This document shows, in pieces, positions 1,191-33,435 of a DNA stretch of 33,435 nt. This DNA is from Alphaproteobacteria bacterium. GTDB lineage: Bacteria; Pseudomonadota; Alphaproteobacteria; Micropepsales; Micropepsaceae. Both the position numbers and the translations under genes were made by a program. The stretch spans positions 1 to 33,435 of the forward strand of contig CANHNJ010000020.1 in NCBI GenBank assembly GCA_947462105.1, given 5' to 3'. Positions within the stretch are counted from its first letter, which is position 1. Every line of letters begins with the position of its first letter. Below the pieces are notes generated by a model. It did not search any database, was not told the DNA's origin, and was given only the letters and a program-made list of their open reading frames with translations.

Positions 1191-3461
1191 TTACGGGACT
1201 GCAAAACCCTGCGGCGCGCGGCCGGCGCGGCTGGTTTGCGCCATGATGTCATAGGCGGCTTCCAGATCGCGGGTGAAGCGCGCCGTGTCGAACAGGGGGC
1301 TGGTGTCGCGCGCTGCCGCCAGCCGCGTGCGGATATCGGCCAGGCGTGCGGTATCCTGCGCCAGTAGCGTTGCCAGCTTTTCGTATTCCGCCAGGCTCCC
1401 GGTGATCAGCTCCGGCAGCGCCATTGCCGTCAGCAGGCTGGCGGCGACGCGGCCCGCAAAGGCGGTACCACGGCAGGTGAGCAGCGGCACGCCCGCCCAC
1501 AGCGCATCACTGGCGGTGGTGTGTGCGTTGTAGGGCAGGGTGTCGAGGAAGAGATCGGCCAGCGCCAATCGCGCCAGGTGCTGGTCGAGCTCCAGCGGTT
1601 CCGCAAAGATCAGCCGGTCCGCTGCGATGCCCTGTTCCTCTGCAACGCGCCGCAGGTTCGCCACGGCGACATCATTGTCGCGCAGCAGCCAGAGCACGCT
1701 GTCGTCACGGCTTTGCAGCAGCTGCAGCCAGATCGCGAAGATTTCCGGCGTCAGCTTGTAGAGCTGGTTGAAGTTGCAGAACACGAAGCCCTGCGCCGGC
1801 AGCCCCGCCGCTTCGCGCGTGGCGGCTGCGGGCCGGGCGCGGCGGGCATCGTTGGCCTGGTAGCTATGCGGCAGCCAGGCCACGGCTTCATCGTAAAAAT
1901 GGCGTTCGCCTTCGGGGATCACGCTGCGGTCTGCGATTATGTAATCCATCCAGGGCGCGCCCAGCGTGGCGGGAAAGCCCAGATAGTTCACCTGCACCGG
2001 GGCGGGCCGCTGCGCGAAGACGCCGCTGCGCGGGCGGCCGAAATAGCCGTTGAGATTGACCAGGATGTCGATGCCGGCCTCGCGCATAGCGGCAGCGGCC
2101 TGCGCGTCGGAAAGCGCGGCGATGTCGGTGAAGCCGCCAAAGGCCTGCGCCAGCCGCGTCCGCATCGGGCTGCCATCGTCAAAGCCGTTGTCGAAGGCGG
2201 TGATCTCGAAGCGCGAACGGTCATGCGCTTCATAGACGCCCGCCATCAGGTAGGCGGTGGCCTGTTCGCGGAAATCGGCCGAGACATAACCGATGCGGAT
2301 ACGTTCGCGCATCGGCATCGGCCAGCGCGCGGGCGACGGGGTGGGAAACTGGTCCGCCGCGAACAGGCGTGAGCATTGCTGCAGCGAGGCGGGATCGGCG
2401 CTGATCGCCTGCCAGGCGAAGGGCCGCACCACGCGCTGGCCCGCCATGATGTCCGCCGCCAGGGCGGCATGGCCGGCGTCGCGGCCGTCCCAGTCCGCGC
2501 CCTGCATCTTCAGATAGGCCAGCTCGCCCTTGAGCCAGGGCATCTGCGGCTCCAGCACCAGCGCCCGGGCGAGATCGGCCTTGGCCTCGTCATGGCGCCG
2601 TTCCACCGCCCAGCGCAGGAAGCCGCGATTGTTCAGCGCGGTGGCGAAATCGGGATTCAGGCGCAGGGCGGTGTCGAAACTCTCCAGCGCTTCGCTCTCG
2701 CGGTCCAGCGCCCGCAACGTCGCGCCGCGCCGGTTCCACATCTCGGCGTCATTGGGCGCCAGCACCAGCAGCCGCTCGTAATCGGCCAGGGCTTCGGCGG
2801 CGCGACCGGTTTCGCCTAGCACCAGGGCGCGATTGGTCAATGACGGCGCATGGCGCGGGTCTGACGCCAGCGCCCGCGTCCAGTCGGCAAGGGCGGCATC
2901 AGCATCGCGCCGGGCCCATGCCAGCAGGCCCCGGTTGCTCAGCGCTTCGACATGGCCGGGCTGCAGCATCAGCAGGCTGTCATAGCTGGCGCGGGCTTCG
3001 TCGGGCCGCCCCAGGTCGCCCAGCAACAGGGCGCGGTGGAACAGGGCGCCGATATGCTGGGGATGCAGCGTTACCGCGCGGTCATAGGCCGCCAGCGCTT
3101 CTTGCGGGCGCGCGGTTTCCCCAAGCGCCAGGCCGCGCTGGAAATGGGCATCCGGCATGGCGGGCGCGGCAGCAGCGGCGCGGTCGAAGCTGGCCAGCGC
3201 TTCCACGGTGCGGCCCAGCAGGCGCAGTGTCATGCCGTGATTGACCAGCGCCGGGGCCTCGAAAGGATTGCGGCGCAGGGCTTCCTCCAGCAACGGCACC
3301 GCCTCGGCAAGGCGGCCCTGCTGCATCCGGATGACGCCGATATAGTGGTAAGGCCCGGCTTCGTCCGGCGTCTGCGCCAGCACCTGCCGGTACAATGCCT
3401 CGGCTTCCGCCAGGCGGCCCTGCTGATGCAGGGCAATGGCTTGCTGCACCAGTTGCGACAC
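1191..3461 (-). CDS. TPR-repeat protein with O-GlcNAc transferase-like (GT41/SPINDLY) catalytic domain
   Basis: This 756-residue protein has TPR repeats across about residues 1-310, with many copies of the ALxNRGxxL and AxxDRAxxLxP pattern. A GT41-type domain follows from about residue 384 to 740. Recognisable blocks are RIRIGYVSADF, ILVNLNGYFGRPRSGVFAQR, APVQVNYLGFPAT, FVFCNFNQLYKLTPEIFAIW and LFLDTLPYNAHTTASDALWAG. GT41 enzymes transfer a sugar from a nucleotide sugar to Ser/Thr of proteins chosen by the TPR superhelix, and bacterial members are often linked to flagellin or cell-surface glycosylation. The Lys in NQLYKL matches the UDP-contacting Lys of human OGT. The position of the conserved His after GYVSADF (usually REH) is REQ here. 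The start is GTG 3461 with a CGGGGA motif just upstream. It lies 30 bp after the stop of maeB on the same strand. Confidence 0.88.
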   Translation of the reverse strand: MSQLVQQAIALHQQGRLAEAEALYRQVLAQTPDEAGPYHYIGVIRMQQGRLAEAVPLLEEALRRNPFEAPALVNHGMTLRLLGRTVEALASFDRAAAAAPAMPDAHFQRGLALGETARPQEALAAYDRAVTLHPQHIGALFHRALLLGDLGRPDEARASYDSLLMLQPGHVEALSNRGLLAWARRDADAALADWTRALASDPRHAPSLTNRALVLGETGRAAEALADYERLLVLAPNDAEMWNRRGATLRALDRESEALESFDTALRLNPDFATALNNRGFLRWAVERRHDEAKADLARALVLEPQMPWLKGELAYLKMQGADWDGRDAGHAALAADIMAGQRVVRPFAWQAISADPASLQQCSRLFAADQFPTPSPARWPMPMRERIRIGYVSADFREQATAYLMAGVYEAHDRSRFEITAFDNGFDDGSPMRTRLAQAFGGFTDIAALSDAQAAAAMREAGIDILVNLNGYFGRPRSGVFAQRPAPVQVNYLGFPATLGAPWMDYIIADRSVIPEGERHFYDEAVAWLPHSYQANDARRARPAAATREAAGLPAQGFVFCNFNQLYKLTPEIFAIWLQLLQSRDDSVLWLLRDNDVAVANLRRVAEEQGIAADRLIFAEPLELDQHLARLALADLFLDTLPYNAHTTASDALWAGVPLLTCRGTAFAGRVAASLLTAMALPELITGSLAEYEKLATLLAQDTARLADIRTRLAAARDTSPLFDTARFTRDLEAAYDIMAQTSRAGRAPQGFAVP

Positions 3462-3491
3462 GCATTTCCCCGAAATATTAGCGGTGTAAAC

Positions 3492-5771
3492 TTATAGCTT
3501 CTGCGCCTGATCGGCCTGCGCCACGGCCAGCGCCGTCATGTTGACGATACCGCGTGCCGTGACGCTGGGCACCATCACATGGATCGGCTGGGCCACGCCC
3601 AGCAGCAGCGGACCCACCAGCAGCGCCTCGGTCGCCGCCGACAGCAGCGTCAGGGCGATATTGGCGGCATCCAGGTTGGGCATGATCAACAGGTTGGCGG
3701 AGCCGCTAAGCGGGCTGGACGACACAAAGCGCCCGCGCAGCACATCGCTCAGCGCCGCGTCGGCATGCATCTCGCCATCGACCTCGAAATCCGGACTGGC
3801 GGCGCGGATCAGCTTCAGCGCCTTGCGCATCTTGCGGGCATTCTCGGAGTCCGAGGTGCCGAAGCTGGAATGCGACAGCAGCGCGGCCTTGGGCGCCAGC
3901 CCGAAGCGGCGCACGCTTTTCGCGGCCAGAAAAGTCATTTCCGCGATCTGCTCGGCGGAAGGGTCCAGGTTGAGATGGGTGTCGCAGAAGAACAGCGCGC
4001 CCTTGGGCAGGATGAGCGCCGACAGCGAATACAACCGGCTGACGGCAGGATCGCGCGGGATGATCGGCAGGATGTTGGCGAGCTGGCGCGTCCAGTCGCC
4101 CAGGCCGCCGCACAGCGCCGCATCCGCTTCGCCTGCTTCCAGCAGCATGGCGGCGGCGATGCCGTGGCGGCTCTTGATCCAGCGCGCCGCCGATTCCGGC
4201 TGCACGCCCTTGCGTTCGACCAGGCGCTGGTAGCGTTCGCTCAAGGGCGCGAAGACGTCCTTGTCGAGCTGGGGATCGAGCACCCGCACCTGGCGGTCCA
4301 GGTCCAGGCGCAGGCCCAGCTTCTTGCTCTTTTCTGCGATGACCTCGCGCCGCCCGATCAGGATGGGATGGGCCAGGCCTTCATCGACCACCGTCTGCAC
4401 GGCGCGCAGGACGCGGTCTTCCTCGCCTTCGGCATAGACGACGCGGCGCGGGCGCTGGCGCGCGACCTCGAACACGGGCCGCATCAGCTGGCCGGAGCGA
4501 TAGACGAATTTTTCCAGCTCGATTTCATAGGCGTGGAAATCGGTGATGGGACGCCGCGCCACGCCGGTCGCCATCGCCGCCTTCGCCACGGCGGGGGCGA
4601 TGTGCAGGATCAGACGCGGATCGAACGGCTTGGGAATGATGTATTCGGGGCCAAAGCCGGTGAGCGAGCCGCCATAGGCCTGGGCCACGACATCGCTGCC
4701 TTCGGCGCGGGCCAGCGCGGCGATGGCTTCGACCGCCGCCACCTTCATCGCCTCGTTGATGGTGGTGGCATCCACGTCCAGCGCGCCCCGGAAGATGAAG
4801 GGAAAGCACAGAACGTTGTTGACCTGGTTGGCATAGTCGCTGCGGCCGGTGGCGATGATGGCGTCGGGGCGCGCCGCCTTGGCCGCTTCCGGCGTGATCT
4901 CGGGATCGGGGTTGGCCAGCGCCATGATGATGGGCTTGTCCGCCATCTGCGGCAGCCATTCCGGCTTCAGCACGTTCGGGGCGGAAAGGCCCAGGAAGAC
5001 GTCCGCACCCACCAGCACTTCGCCCAGCGTGCGCGCATCGGTGGCCCGCGCATAGCGCGCCATGTTGGCCGGCATCTCGTCGCCGCGATTCTTGTAAACC
5101 ACGCCCTTGATGTCGGTGAGGGTGACGTTGGCCACCGGCAGGCCCATCTCGACCAGCAGGTCGACACAGGCCAGCGCCGCAGCGCCGGCACCGGAAGTCA
5201 CCAGCTTGACGTCGGCCAGGGTCTTGCCCTGCAGCACCAGGCCGTTGCGGATGGCGGCGGCGCAGACGATGGCGGTGCCGTGCTGGTCGTCATGGAAGAC
5301 CGGAATCTTCATGCGCTCGCGCAGCTTCTTCTCGATGATGAAGCATTCGGGCGCCTTGATGTCTTCCAGGTTGATGCCGCCAAAGGTCGGCTCCAGCGCC
5401 GCCACGATATCGACGAAGCGGTCCACTTCCAGCGCGTCGATTTCCAGGTCGAAAACGTCGATGCCGGCGAATTTCTTGAACAGGACGGCCTTGCCTTCCA
5501 TCACCGGCTTGGACGCCAGCGGGCCGATATTGCCCAGCCCCAGCACGGCGGTGCCGTTGGTGATCACCGCCACCAGGTTGGCGCGGGCGGTATAGTCACG
5601 CGCCAGCGCGGGATCGGCGGCGATGGCCAGGCAGGGCGCGGCGACGCCGGGCGAATAGGCCAGCGCCAGATCGCGCTGGTTGGCCATGCGCTTGGTCGGT
5701 TCGACCGACAATTTTCCCGGCCGCGGGCTGCGGTGATATTCCAGCGCGCTCTTGCGAAAACTCTCATCCAT
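3492..5771 (-). CDS. maeB: NADP-dependent malic enzyme with C-terminal phosphotransacetylase-like domain
   Basis: The 759-residue length and two-part architecture are typical of MaeB. The malic enzyme domain (about residues 15-425) shows the [13 protein letters not shown] motif, [18 protein letters not shown], the metal-binding stretch [12 protein letters not shown] with [10 protein letters not shown], and the nucleotide loop [15 protein letters not shown]. The C-terminal third (about 430-759) resembles phosphate acetyltransferase. In studied MaeB enzymes it is not catalytic but binds acetyl-CoA as an inhibitor. The enzyme oxidatively decarboxylates malate to pyruvate and CO2 in the cytoplasm and yields NADPH. 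ATG 5771 is the natural start for an N-terminus reading [20 protein letters not shown]. It is divergent from gnd across a 166-bp gap, so the two NADPH/pentose-linked genes could share a control region. I did not find a clear promoter there. Confidence 0.95.
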
Positions 5772-8798: not shown

Positions 8799-9578
8799 AT
8801 GACAACCGAATTCATCACGGCCGCCGATGGCGTGAAGATCGCCTGGGAAAGACTGGGCGTGGCGGGTGATGCGCCGCTGGCGGTGCTGGTGCATGGCTTC
8901 GGCTCCAGCCGGGGCCAGAACTGGAAATCCACCGGCTGGTATTCCACCCTGACCGAGGCGGGCTTCGCCATCGTGGCGATGGACCTGCGCGGCCACGGGA
9001 TGAGCGACAAGCCGCGCGATCCCGCTTCTTATGGCCATGAACGCATGGCCGGCGATGTGAGCGCCGTGATGGATGCGGCGGGTGCCGCGCGCGCCTTTCT
9101 CTGTGGCTATTCCATGGGCGGCTTCATCGCGCTGCGTCTGGCGGCGGCGCATTCCGGGCGTGTCGCCAAGCTGGCGCTCGCCGGCGTGGGGGCGCATTAC
9201 CTGCATGGCCCGCGCATCGCCGATCCAGCCTCGCGCGATACGCTGGCCGAAGCGCTGGAGACCGACGATCCTTCCACGCTCACCGACAAGCGCGCTATCA
9301 TGTTCCGCGCCTTTGCCGAGCAGCCGGGCAAGGACCGCTTTGCGCTTGCGGCCTGCATGCGTGCCATGTCGCCAAGATTGCCCAATGAGACTCTGGCGCA
9401 ATTTACGCAGGCGGTGCTGGTGGTTTGCGGTGACCGCGATGACATCTCTGGCAATCCCGATGAACTGGCGGCGCAGTTTCGCCATGGTTCTGCCGTGACC
9501 GTGGCAGATCGCGATCACATGAGCGCGGTGGGCGACCGCCGCACCCGCAACGCCGTAGCGGAATTTTTCCGCCGCTAG
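8799..9578 (+). CDS. Alpha/beta-fold hydrolase
   Basis: The 259-residue protein has all hallmarks of the alpha/beta hydrolase fold. HGFGSSRGQNW forms the oxyanion-hole strand turn, and DLRGHGMSDKP is the strand-6 loop. GYSMGG holds the nucleophile Ser105. VVCGDRDD holds the acidic residue (about Asp212-214), and DHMS holds His240. No signal peptide is present, so it is cytoplasmic. Members hydrolyse esters, lactones or C-C bonds, and the sequence does not settle the substrate. It is divergent from the DUF423 gene and precedes the truncated Crp-like gene by about 110 bp. Confidence 0.88.
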   Translation: MTTEFITAADGVKIAWERLGVAGDAPLAVLVHGFGSSRGQNWKSTGWYSTLTEAGFAIVAMDLRGHGMSDKPRDPASYGHERMAGDVSAVMDAAGAARAFLCGYSMGGFIALRLAAAHSGRVAKLALAGVGAHYLHGPRIADPASRDTLAEALETDDPSTLTDKRAIMFRAFAEQPGKDRFALAACMRAMSPRLPNETLAQFTQAVLVVCGDRDDISGNPDELAAQFRHGSAVTVADRDHMSAVGDRRTRNAVAEFFRR

Positions 9579-26841: not shown

Positions 26842-26918
26842 CGGAGAGTAGCTCAGCCTGGTAGAGCACTACGTTCGGGACGTAGGGGCCGGAGGTTCGA
26901 ATCCTCTCTCTCCGACCA
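26842..26918 (+). tRNA. tRNA-Pro (anticodon CGG), integration site of the adjacent element
   Basis: The 77 bases have the acceptor stem CGGAGAG/CTCTCCG with encoded CCA at 26916-26918. The anticodon stem-loop is CTACG-TTCGGGA-CGTAG with CGG in the centre, and the T-loop sequence TTCGAAT is standard. A tyrosine integrase starts about 100 bp downstream, and base composition falls right after the tRNA. Its 3' end is therefore the likely attachment core. The matching repeat at the other end of the element is not in the window. Confidence 0.95.
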
Positions 26919-28972: not shown

Positions 28973-29140
28973 TCTCAGAAATTGGACTAAATCCGGCTGC
29001 ATGACTGACGCAAAGCGGGGTGCCTAATTACTGGTTCCACAACTCAACGCCAGACGCTCCGATGTGCTGGGATATCTGAGCCGGTCTTAGCGCCTTTTCT
29101 AGCCTCCCCCAGCGGCTTTCGAGGCTGGCGGCTAGTCAGG

Positions 29141-29184
29141 GATTCAGCCGGGGCAAACGCCTGCCAGTGGACTTGCTAGAGTCT
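29141..29184 (+). repeat. 44-bp element repeat, copy A
   Basis: It begins GATTCAGCCGGGG and ends TAGAGTCT. It matches copies B (31921-31964) and C (33283-33326) over 44 bp with no gap, and is the most diverged of the three. It is preceded by GGCTAG, as copy B is, so the shared block may extend about 10 bp to the left. Confidence 0.8.
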
Positions 29185-29235
29185 CTGTCGGCCTAAACGC
29201 GCTAACCCTTTACATTCGTACTTGCCAGCGTATCC

Positions 29236-29250
29236 GTTCTCTATATGTTC
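29236..29250 (+). promoter_or_regulatory. LexA (SOS) box upstream of the umuD-like/umuC operon
   Basis: GTTC-TCTATAT-GTTC is an exact match to the alphaproteobacterial LexA consensus GTTC-N7-GTTC. It ends 13 bp before the ATG at 29264, so bound LexA would cover the promoter or the ribosome-binding region. This supports DNA-damage induction of the two genes that follow. Confidence 0.85.
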
Positions 29251-29263
29251 CAATCCCTTTCGT

Positions 29264-29653
29264 ATGGGGTCAAGGGTGTCTGGAGGCGAATATAACGGCG
29301 GGAATACAACGGGCTTCGCGTCACCAGCAGGCGATAGCCTCGAAGGCACCATAGACCTTTCGGCGGTTCTCGATCTGCGTAGCCCCAGTCGCTACCCGGT
29401 CAGAGTTCGCGGTGACGCCCTGAACCAGCGCGGCATCAGGCATGGTGACATCCTGATTGCGGACGCTGCTGCGCCGCCTATGCCCGGTCGTGTTGTCGTG
29501 GCGATGATCCATGGCGACGTTGTTGTCTGCGAACTCGCCTACAAAGACGCACAGTGGTGGCTACAGCCATCCCGCAGTAGTCCGGCTGTCTGTGTTGGCG
29601 ATGATGTTGAAGTCTGGGCGACCGTGTCTGGCCTTGTACGCACGGACGTCTAA
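29264..29653 (+). CDS. UmuD-like (S24 family) protein lacking the catalytic Ser and Lys
   Basis: I place the start at ATG 29264, downstream of the LexA box, giving 129 residues. The overall layout is that of UmuD: a short N-terminal arm, then [17 protein letters not shown] at the place of the self-cleavage site (UmuD has CGFPSPAADY), then [20 protein letters not shown] and a C-terminal [12 protein letters not shown]. The nucleophile motif Ser-Gly-Asp-Ser-Met is Arg49-Gly-Asp-Ala52-Leu here, so the catalytic Ser is Ala. The general-base Lys region (TVKKL in UmuD) is VVCEL, so the Lys is Cys89. It should therefore be unable to cleave itself or LexA-like partners. It is likely still a partner of the UmuC encoded 2 bp downstream. 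It is induced by DNA damage if the LexA box works. Confidence 0.85.
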
Positions 29654-29655
29654 CC

Positions 29656-30924
29656 ATGAAGCCCGTCTACGGTCTGATAGATGCCAATTCCTTCTATTGC
29701 TCATGCGAGCGGGTGTTCCAGCCACGCCTGCGGCGGCTGCCCGTAGTAGTCCTGAGCAACAATGATGGCTGCGCCATTGCCCGCACAGCGGAGGCTAAGG
29801 CGCTGGGCATCAAGATGGGCGATCCGTGGCACCTGATCCGCAAACGTCCTGAACTGGCAGCCGTGGAATGGTTCAGCAGCAACTATGCCTTGTATGGGGA
29901 TATGAGCCGCCGGATGTACCAAGTGCTGGCTGAACGGGTGCCTAGGGTCGAGCCTTACAGCATCGACGAGATGTTCTTGGACCTGACCGGCCTACCGGGC
30001 GATCTGACCGAGCGGTGCCGGTCCCTACGAGACGATGTTCGTCGTATTGCTAAAATACCGACCTGCATTGGCTGGGGGCCGACCAAGACCATCGCCAAGC
30101 TGGCTAATGGCATAGCTAAGGACAATCCCGATCTTGGCGGCGTATGTGATCTGACTGATCCAGCCATACGGGGCAGCTACTATGCAGCCCTGCCAGTAGG
30201 GGAAGTCTGGGGCATTGGTGGCAAGAGCGCAACGAAGCTGGAGAAGGCGGGATACAGAACCATCCAAGACTTCATTGATGCCCCTGTGCCTGAAGTGCGC
30301 GGGCTTCTGACCGTTGTTGGTGAACGCATACAGGCCGAACTGCGAAGCGTATCATGTCTGGCGTTCATAGACGCCCCCGCCGACCGCAAGAGTATTGCCT
30401 GTACGCGATCCTTCGGGCGGCCCATCACAGCGTGGTATGAAATGCGGGAGGCCATTGCCACCTATGCAGCCAGAGCCGCCGAGAAGCTACGCCAGCAGGG
30501 TCTGCAGGCAGGGCATATCTCCGTGTTCTTGCATACCAATCCCCACGCTAAAGGCGAGCCATGGCATAGCGGGCAGAAGGCCGCTCAGATCGAGCCAACC
30601 AATGACACGATGGCATTGATCACACAGGCAGTGCGAATGCTGAAGCCTCTATGGCGCGACGGTTACCGCTACGCGAAGGCGGGCGTGATGTTGAACGACT
30701 TAGAACCAGCCGTTGAACGCCCCAAGCAGCTATTCTTTAGCCTGTCGGATGGGCGATCAAAGCTTCTGATGCCAGCGATGGACGCAATCAACGCCCGCTA
30801 CGGGAAGAACGCCATCTCACCGCTGGCTGTAGGCATAGCGCGTCCATGGGCAGCGCGTAGTCGTCGATTGTCACGGCAGTACACGACGAAGCTGGAAGAC
30901 GTGTTGGCTGCTCAGGCTTGGTAG
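29656..30924 (+). CDS. umuC: DNA polymerase V catalytic subunit UmuC (Y-family)
   Basis: The 422-residue protein is a full-length Y-family translesion polymerase. Catalytic acids are present: Asp9 in [15 protein letters not shown], and Asp104-Glu105 in [11 protein letters not shown]. Other blocks are [34 protein letters not shown], the helix-hairpin-helix [20 protein letters not shown], and the C-terminal little-finger and UmuC-specific part. PKQLFFSL resembles a beta-clamp-binding motif. With a UmuD'-type partner it copies past lesions in an error-prone way. It starts 2 bp after the umuD-like stop and shares its LexA-controlled promoter. All catalytic residues are intact, in contrast to its partner. 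Its lower GC content agrees with acquisition on the element. Confidence 0.95.
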
Positions 30925-31807: not shown

Positions 31808-31920
31808 CTTATTGCCCTTCGTGGCTGTTACAGCCCACTACACTTCTACTGCTCTACGGCAGACAGTGGCACATCGGCAAGATAGCACACAGGAGATGCT
31901 CCGCCCGCCCGGCTAGGCAG

Positions 31921-31964
31921 GATTCAGCCGGGGAAAATGCCCGCCAGCGGAGTCCGCAGAGTCT
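31921..31964 (+). repeat. 44-bp element repeat, copy B
   Basis: It begins GATTCAGCCGGGG and ends AGAGTCT. I count 37 of 44 bases identical to copy C. It lies 114 bp upstream of the DUF3833 start and directly left of the IS3 remnant, which may have cut its right flank. Confidence 0.8.
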
Positions 31965-33253: not shown

Positions 33254-33282
33254 AGGGACCGCCCAGCCGCCGATGATGGCAG

Positions 33283-33326
33283 GACTCAGCCGGGGCGAAT
33301 GGCTGTCAGCGGAGTCCGTAGAGTCT
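33283..33326 (+). repeat. 44-bp element repeat, copy C
   Basis: It begins GACTCAGCCGGGG and ends TAGAGTCT. In this copy GACTC (33283) and an internal GAGTC (33312) are inverted complements, and CAGCC/GGCTG can pair, so it can form a small hairpin. It lies between the stop of the partial gene at the window edge and the amine oxidase unit. Confidence 0.8.
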
Positions 33327-33334
33327 GTGTCCAC

Positions 33335-33435
33335 CTACCAGCGATAGGCGACGTTACCCGTTCCTTGGAGGATGGTCGTCCCAGAGCCGACCTGACTGTC
33401 TAGGCGAACGCCGAAGGACAGCCCCGTGGCTTTCT
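33335..33435 (-). CDS. C-terminal fragment of an unidentified protein
   Basis: On the minus strand the frame is open from the window edge for 32 codons to TAG at 33335-33337. The end reads SFGVRLDSQVGSGTTILQGT and then GNVAYRW. The alternating hydrophobic/polar pattern and the terminal aromatic Trp are like the last strands of an outer-membrane or surface beta protein. Too little is visible to name a family. Confidence 0.35.
   Translation of the reverse strand, partial: KATGLSFGVRLDSQVGSGTTILQGTGNVAYRW

Follow-up and report, generated by a model that had tools for sequence, protein, structure and literature searches.

UmuD normally must cut itself to switch on its polymerase, and this self-cleavage acts as a delay: Pol V stays off unless damage persists. 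One arm of UmuD' reaches, in a published Pol V model, into the UmuC cleft close to the active site, and UmuD' without its arm has been described as inactive (PMC11791011). The idea of a pre-activated UmuD' is already known from phage P1, whose HumD has been described as a shorter form of UmuD that is activated from the start (PMC7092418). The B. subtilis proteins YqjX/YolD, subunits of YqjW/UvrX, are also small non-proteolytic partners of a UmuC-like polymerase. Models place the arm of these small subunits into the polymerase (PMC12926913), and they have been assigned to a different family with the SH3-type core alone in common (PMC6511836).

The window analysed here is the whole 33,435-nt stretch of an alphaproteobacterial contig (CANHNJ010000020.1, Micropepsaceae). 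It carries a umuD-like gene that has the S24/LexA fold, the G-F-x-S-P-A arm, the position directly before umuC and the LexA-type box in common with E. coli UmuD/UmuD', but differs from E. coli UmuD in lacking the Ser-Lys dyad and in having T-G for C-G. The locus is laid out as follows:

29236-29250, + strand: LexA-type box, an exact match to GTTC-N7-GTTC; relatives and the host lexA and recA carry the pattern too
29264-29653, + strand: umuD-like gene without the Ser-Lys dyad, assigned from its translation, Pfam, a PDB sequence match and an AlphaFold model with the UmuD'/LexA fold
29291-29317, + strand: codons of the arm's conserved motif, Y-x-G-x-x-T-T-G-F, which spans the old cleavage site (29-member alignment)
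29417-29419, + strand: GCC codon of Ala52, at the position of Ser60 (aligned clade members: Ala 18, Thr 9, Gly 1, Pro 1 of 29, plus one Ser in L144)
29528-29530, + strand: TGC codon of Cys89, at the position of Lys97 (Ala 16, Cys 12, Gly 1 of 29)
29656-30924, + strand: umuC, a Y-family polymerase gene with D9, D104 and E105 intact and a DUF4113/RecA-NT tail (Pfam IMS, IMS_C, DUF4113)

The product of the umuD-like gene is 129 aa long, with residues numbered from the ATG at 29264. As a first-pass annotation had claimed, both catalytic residues are replaced: in the phmmer alignment against PDB sequences, Ala52 pairs with catalytic Ser60 of E. coli UmuD and Cys89 with the position of catalytic Lys97. 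The same annotation had read T-G-F instead of C-G or A-G at the old cleavage site and an intact umuC 2 bp away; the translation confirms the former, and the latter agrees with a umuD stop ending at 29653, a umuC beginning at 29656 and the presence of all three catalytic residues. Translation of umuD perhaps starts at GTG 29276 rather than at ATG 29264. The box begins 28 nt before the ATG and 40 nt before the GTG, and 32-45 nt before the start in relatives with a box directly upstream, whose start codons were assigned by rule (nearest ATG at least 7 residues before G-F).

The window protein matches PF00717 (Peptidase_S24) at 41.2 bits (cut-off 23.3), and UmuD chains rank first among PDB sequences in phmmer (8gmt, E=1.8e-11; 1umu, E=6.7e-11). 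An AlphaFold model whose input was 28 sequences, those of the window and of loci found in the contig scans, has high confidence over residues 41-129 (block means 86-95) and poor over residues 1-40 (pLDDT 43-62). Foldseek places UmuD' first for this model (1umu, E 9.1e-07). In VIA-align 2 the model aligns with UmuD' 1ay9 at Z 13.9 (97 residues, rmsd 8.2), and its residues 40-126 fall on residues 48-136 of UmuD 8gmt at Z 12.6 (86 residues, rmsd 2.3), in a ranking where lambda repressor and LexA domains tie with the UmuD structures. All three curated models score below their cut-offs: NF007621 PRK10276 for UmuD at 67.9 bits (cut-off 110), NF051876 for HumD at 29.8 bits (cut-off 120) and TIGR00498 for LexA at 33.5 bits (cut-off 110.95), the last with a match limited to model positions 94-200. 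Since the dyad was looked for and is missing, we do not class this protein as a UmuD; it most likely works like UmuD'. Databases label these proteins 'S24 family peptidase', a misleading name where the catalytic residues are gone.

P1 HumD is a natural UmuD-like protein without need of self-cleavage, as is proposed below for the window protein, and it has a LexA site upstream, as does the window umuD. However, HumD starts exactly at the cleavage-site Gly with Ser and Lys still aligned, whereas the window protein has an arm and no dyad; either 12 residues (GTG start) or 16 (ATG) precede its Gly, in place of a HumD-type start. No umuC is annotated alongside HumD, whereas the window protein is paired with one. 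If the pre-activated reading is right, the two proteins arrive at the same end by different routes. YqjX/YolD differ in another way, the window protein being an S24 homologue. Separately, a UmuD-like protein on a Paracoccus plasmid (L147, 386-757) has Ser and Lys present; its annotated start, possibly HumD-like, precedes A-G-F by only a few residues.

Relatives of the window protein were collected from genomes, plasmids and viral contigs. Searching the window's family (96 genomes, E 1e-5) gave matches in six: its own genome, two near copies (98 and 97% identity; G075 and G007), a remnant in G082 and two distant UmuDs. The contig scan gave three near copies, two of them on the same contigs as G075 and G007. 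Plasmid relatives are the best 18 of at least 5,000 records (H1-H18; 15 intact, 3 broken) plus H27 (broken), with four lower-ranked plasmid rows as controls. The viral contig scan gave 46 loci, 17 in the window's clade and 16 of these intact. The set of 35 intact clade members thus comprises the window and its three near copies, 15 plasmid loci and 16 viral-contig loci, with L021, L024, L025, L072 and L145 excluded as broken or odd. In these searches the clade turned up mainly on Acetobacteraceae plasmids and IMG/VR contigs.

Lys is retained in none of the 35 intact members and Ser in one. Beyond the 29 aligned members, whose residues are given above, six remain; among these L144 (Acetobacter pasteurianus) has Ser at the first position and Ala at the second, and Lys occurs in none. 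By contrast, both residues are present in 28 of 29 UmuD-like control loci from other genomes of the class (29 taken from a longer list of matches, which came from 70 of 387 genomes; the exception, L054, has neither) and in all four more distant plasmid controls. A check on homologues proposed at the outset therefore came out on the side of conservation, with the dyad absent across the clade. We also considered a substitute Ser-Lys pair elsewhere in the protein and rejected it: among the 129 positions, Lys is the commonest residue only at the variable position 128 (10 of 29 aligned members), so there is no conserved replacement Lys. Our searches of the open-access PMC literature turned up nothing describing a naturally dyad-less clade of UmuD.

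Selection on the window umuD-like gene is purifying. Against its three near copies, silent/replacement changes number 16/2, 16/3 and 19/4, with dN/dS of 0.038-0.063; the ratio lies between 0.038 and 0.516 in 18/19 pairs with a defined value, the highest values coming from two divergent pairs (L057-L071, 0.516; L019-L056, 0.267). The first-pass annotation would have given way to a recent point-mutated pseudogene had close homologues carried Ser and Lys. No intact member (0/35) has both, and the selection test together with the dyad-less clade rules such a pseudogene out. It is also very improbable that the gene is decaying and functionless, kept beside a working umuC. Some clade copies are indeed broken: L021 and L025 are frameshifted, L145 is truncated, L024 is fused and G082 holds an N-terminal remnant. 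The two divergent pairs also have raised dN/dS, but the number of intact members, the low near-copy ratios and the maintenance of LexA-type boxes across the clade all count against decay.

Two of these loci are described here for their structure. In L024 (3998-4669; pDS5 of Sphingomonas sp. DS-9), umuD breaks off halfway and continues in frame into the beginning of umuC, with a stop after 223 codons. In L104 (13450-13592; G082), only the first part of umuD is left, with 31 aligned residues; a DUF3833 gene nearby has 90% identity to that of the window.

The earlier claim that umuD is still LexA-controlled is likewise favoured by the exact LexA-type box upstream of the gene and its upkeep in relatives. 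Since GTTC-N7-GTTC occurs three times in the window (0.55 expected), the window box is weak evidence alone and the argument rests on the relatives. In a first set of 30 rows, 24 of the 29 testable ones carry an exact box no more than 230 nt upstream of the G codon (L060, which starts at a contig end, is untestable; L024 and L025 were excluded, L024 also having the box), and an exact box is found in all seven further clade rows, over 160 nt searched. The five rows without a near box (L014, L019, L056, L057, L071) show none with one mismatch close to umuD, and each has an exact box before or overlapping the start of the adjoining upstream gene. Together, all 36 testable members have an exact box before umuD or the adjoining upstream gene, the last five coming from a later, wider search; a shuffle control gave 0.003 boxes per stretch (four upstream stretches, one strand). 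The host genome holds 44 copies of the pattern against 20 of a reversed control, and single copies are therefore weak evidence. Host copies stand upstream of lexA (C4:48239), of recA (C7:99357; the gene lies at 99569) and of a further Y-family gene (C30:9497; the match lies at 9569).

One subclade has a conserved gene of about 115-135 codons directly before umuD and behind the LexA-type box (L019 3323-3697, L056 2587-2937, L057 2637-2996, L071 about 669-1070), a possible third operon member; the L019 frame as annotated (3338-3694) has no Pfam match at E 0.01. In L014 (3160-3990; Lichenicola), a gene annotated as 'damage-inducible mutagenesis protein', ImuA-like and joined to umuDC, overlaps umuD and has a LexA-type box at its start.

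The arm that precedes the Gly of the former cut site, overlooked in the first-pass annotation, sets the clade apart from E. coli UmuD. It measures 9-21 residues in the clade against 24 in E. coli, the clade lengths being estimates that depend on the start-codon rule. Typical arms have 9-11 residues and two members have 21; in L015, L017, L022, L057 and L059, among others, there is no start codon in the open frame for an arm longer than 16. The arm also has its own motif, with Y10, G12, T15, G17 and F18 invariant in all 29 aligned members and T16 in 28. A start at the Gly itself, which would yield exact UmuD', was considered and rejected, no start codon lying nearer than 9 residues in the 35 intact members. 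In E. coli, UmuD 18 (first 17 residues removed, 7 left before the cut) is described as giving low but detectable mutagenesis while uncleaved and as partly mimicking UmuD', whereas UmuD 8 (17 residues before the cut) behaves like UmuD and its S60A form shows greatly reduced mutagenesis (PMC5342242). The window arm falls between the two in length. Being short and carrying a conserved motif, the clade's arm speaks for a UmuD'-like state and not a UmuD-like one.

The partner polymerase appears intact. D9, D104, E105 and Tyr14 are present in all 26 clade UmuC rows, and umuC dN/dS between the window and L012 is 0.064. The window UmuC scores 385.3 with the NCBIfam UmuC model, under the cut-off of 431. 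Its DUF4113 match covers positions 3-49 of 51, and its tail retains L-M-x-x-M-D-x-x-N-x-R-x-G. DUF4113 has been reported to contain a motif homologous to the RecA N-terminus and expected to bind RecA (PMC6511836); the window UmuC retains this motif and would bind RecA through it. In the window UmuC, the first Q of the clamp motif Q-x-x-L-F of many relatives does not stand at its usual position. A post hoc scan found 12 clade-specific UmuC positions, several beside the active site (12, 15, 106), which are only suggestive of co-adaptation between arm and UmuC.

The host genome (2.17 Mb, 98% complete, 41 contigs) contains three Y-family polymerase genes. Searched with the window protein, it yields no second UmuD; a weak second match (E 0.035) is a 261-aa LexA-like frame with an intact dyad. 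Upstream of umuDC, two further features belong to the same block:

26842-26918, + strand: tRNA-Pro(cgg), a possible integration site of the carrier element, contiguous with the integrase and umuD in L011
26996-28081, + strand: tyrosine integrase (PF00589, 104.4 bits; phrog_1 integrase)

L011, a contig from another sample, shares the tRNA-Pro, the integrase, a DUF1376 gene and umuDC with the window (94.5% over 3,046 columns), whereas in G075 and G007 similarity begins only at 29214 and 29152 and that integrase is absent. Thus, the umuDC cassette occurs in more than one setting, and it is tempting to speculate that the integrase moves it. A duplicated tRNA-Pro end that could serve as an integration repeat was not found downstream in the window. 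A repeat of ~65 bp occurs at 29129-29195, 31900-31964 and 33278-33337 of the window and again in L011, L103 and L104. Upstream of clade umuDC on plasmids of Acidiphilium, Lichenicola and Acidithiobacillus, SOS response-associated peptidase (SRAP) genes lie on the opposite strand (L014 112-831, L015 3271-3945, L017 3231-3941, L139, L140), adjoining umuDC in all but L014.

We propose that the window protein serves a Pol V-like mutasome carried by a mobile element, as a permanently mature subunit of the UmuD' type for which no self-cleavage is needed; we put the probability of this at about 0.68. With the UmuD' fold and the conserved G-F-x-S-P-A arm retained, the dyad lost and the arm short, RecA-stimulated self-cleavage would be neither needed nor possible. 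By analogy with the Pol V model, the short conserved arm may dock uncut in the UmuC cleft, and the uncut protein would dimerise, bind UmuC and support translesion synthesis. The remaining controls would be LexA on transcription and RecA binding to the RecA-NT motif of UmuC. Across the clade, dyad loss goes with a short conserved arm, purifying selection, LexA-type boxes and intact UmuC residues. Counting against the proposal are the arm that is still present, the two members at 21 residues, the low confidence of the arm in the model and, in the window UmuC, the clamp motif without its first Q in place.

The first-pass annotation had offered an uncleaved form that is already active or a brake on Pol V. 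The absent dyad, the short arm, the intact UmuC and the lack of another UmuD in the host favour the former, and with it the dyad loss, the LexA-type box and the intact umuC stand; the brake has lost ground. As a brake, the protein would mimic uncleaved UmuD, bind UmuC (or RecA or the replicative polymerase) and hold Pol V in a non-mutagenic checkpoint state. Uncleavable E. coli UmuD S60A forms are described as giving little mutagenesis, and UmuD 8 S60A as sensitising cells to UV at raised dose (PMC5342242); the window arm is close to UmuD 8 in length. However, typical clade arms are nearer UmuD 18, the host has no other UmuD for the window protein to poison, the UmuC catalytic residues are intact, and a dedicated brake leaves the umuC directly behind umuD unexplained. 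We therefore regard a brake as unlikely, though it may act on its own UmuC alone. Somewhat more doubtful still is removal of the arm by a different protease or, in trans, by an S24 partner that is active, in which case control by processing would survive in altered form. UmuD S60A of E. coli is reported to be cleavable in trans when its partner has an active site (PMC5342242), the host has a LexA with intact residues, and one clade member (L144) keeps Ser without Lys. Against this stand the absence of a second UmuD in the host, the T-G at the scissile position and an arm motif that matches the domain in conservation. To our knowledge, LexA is not established as cleaving UmuD in trans, which also counts against processing of this kind. 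The permanently mature subunit remains our preferred reading.

Two further groups lack the dyad. In group B (L073, L074, L075, L092), Asp/Glu replaces Ser and Arg replaces Lys. Group C comprises 25 viral-contig loci, several identical (L076-L091 and L093-L101; contigs up to 321 kb), whose UmuD-like proteins have 99-105 aa, with Arg for Lys in all 25 and, by alignment, Ser in 6. Both groups were found via a motif shared with the query, and their counts do not give frequency in nature. Where umuC lies within a group C locus, its product is 35-40% identical to that of the window; the DUF4113 match starts only at positions 18-26 of 51 in all three scanned, and all 10 rows examined lack the stretch that aligns with the RecA-NT helix. 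When one group C protein was modelled with AlphaFold, its best match was UmuD' 1ay9 (Z 9.0, 69 residues, rmsd 3.2), with signal peptidase-type folds close behind. In the UmuC tree, whose outgroup is a very long branch and whose canonical rows are all alphaproteobacterial, the window's clade (group A, 26 rows) and groups B and C each form one clade (SH-aLRT 100), and the Ser-Lys row L039 adjoins A at SH-aLRT 98. Since AU tests do not reject A+B (p 0.334) or A+C (p 0.309; 54 of 67 rows), the tree is compatible with one dyad loss or several. Outside groups A-C, L054 (G457) is a UmuD-like protein with Val and Arg at the dyad, from a genome with four UmuD-like matches.

As a tentative extension, to which we give somewhat less than even odds, mobile elements may carry a cleavage-free Pol V that has become a stable form in evolution, perhaps on several occasions: self-cleavage would be gone in the window's clade, and in group C the dyad is absent, as is the RecA-NT motif in the UmuC rows examined. 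If so, the group C polymerase would be free of both known RecA inputs. If the helper works uncut, one safety step is gone from an error-prone enzyme on mobile DNA. A natural, conserved, dyad-less clade on elements that hop between bacteria offers a direct way to ask what the cleavage delay is worth, and lets one ask whether an uncut, short-arm subunit can activate UmuC.
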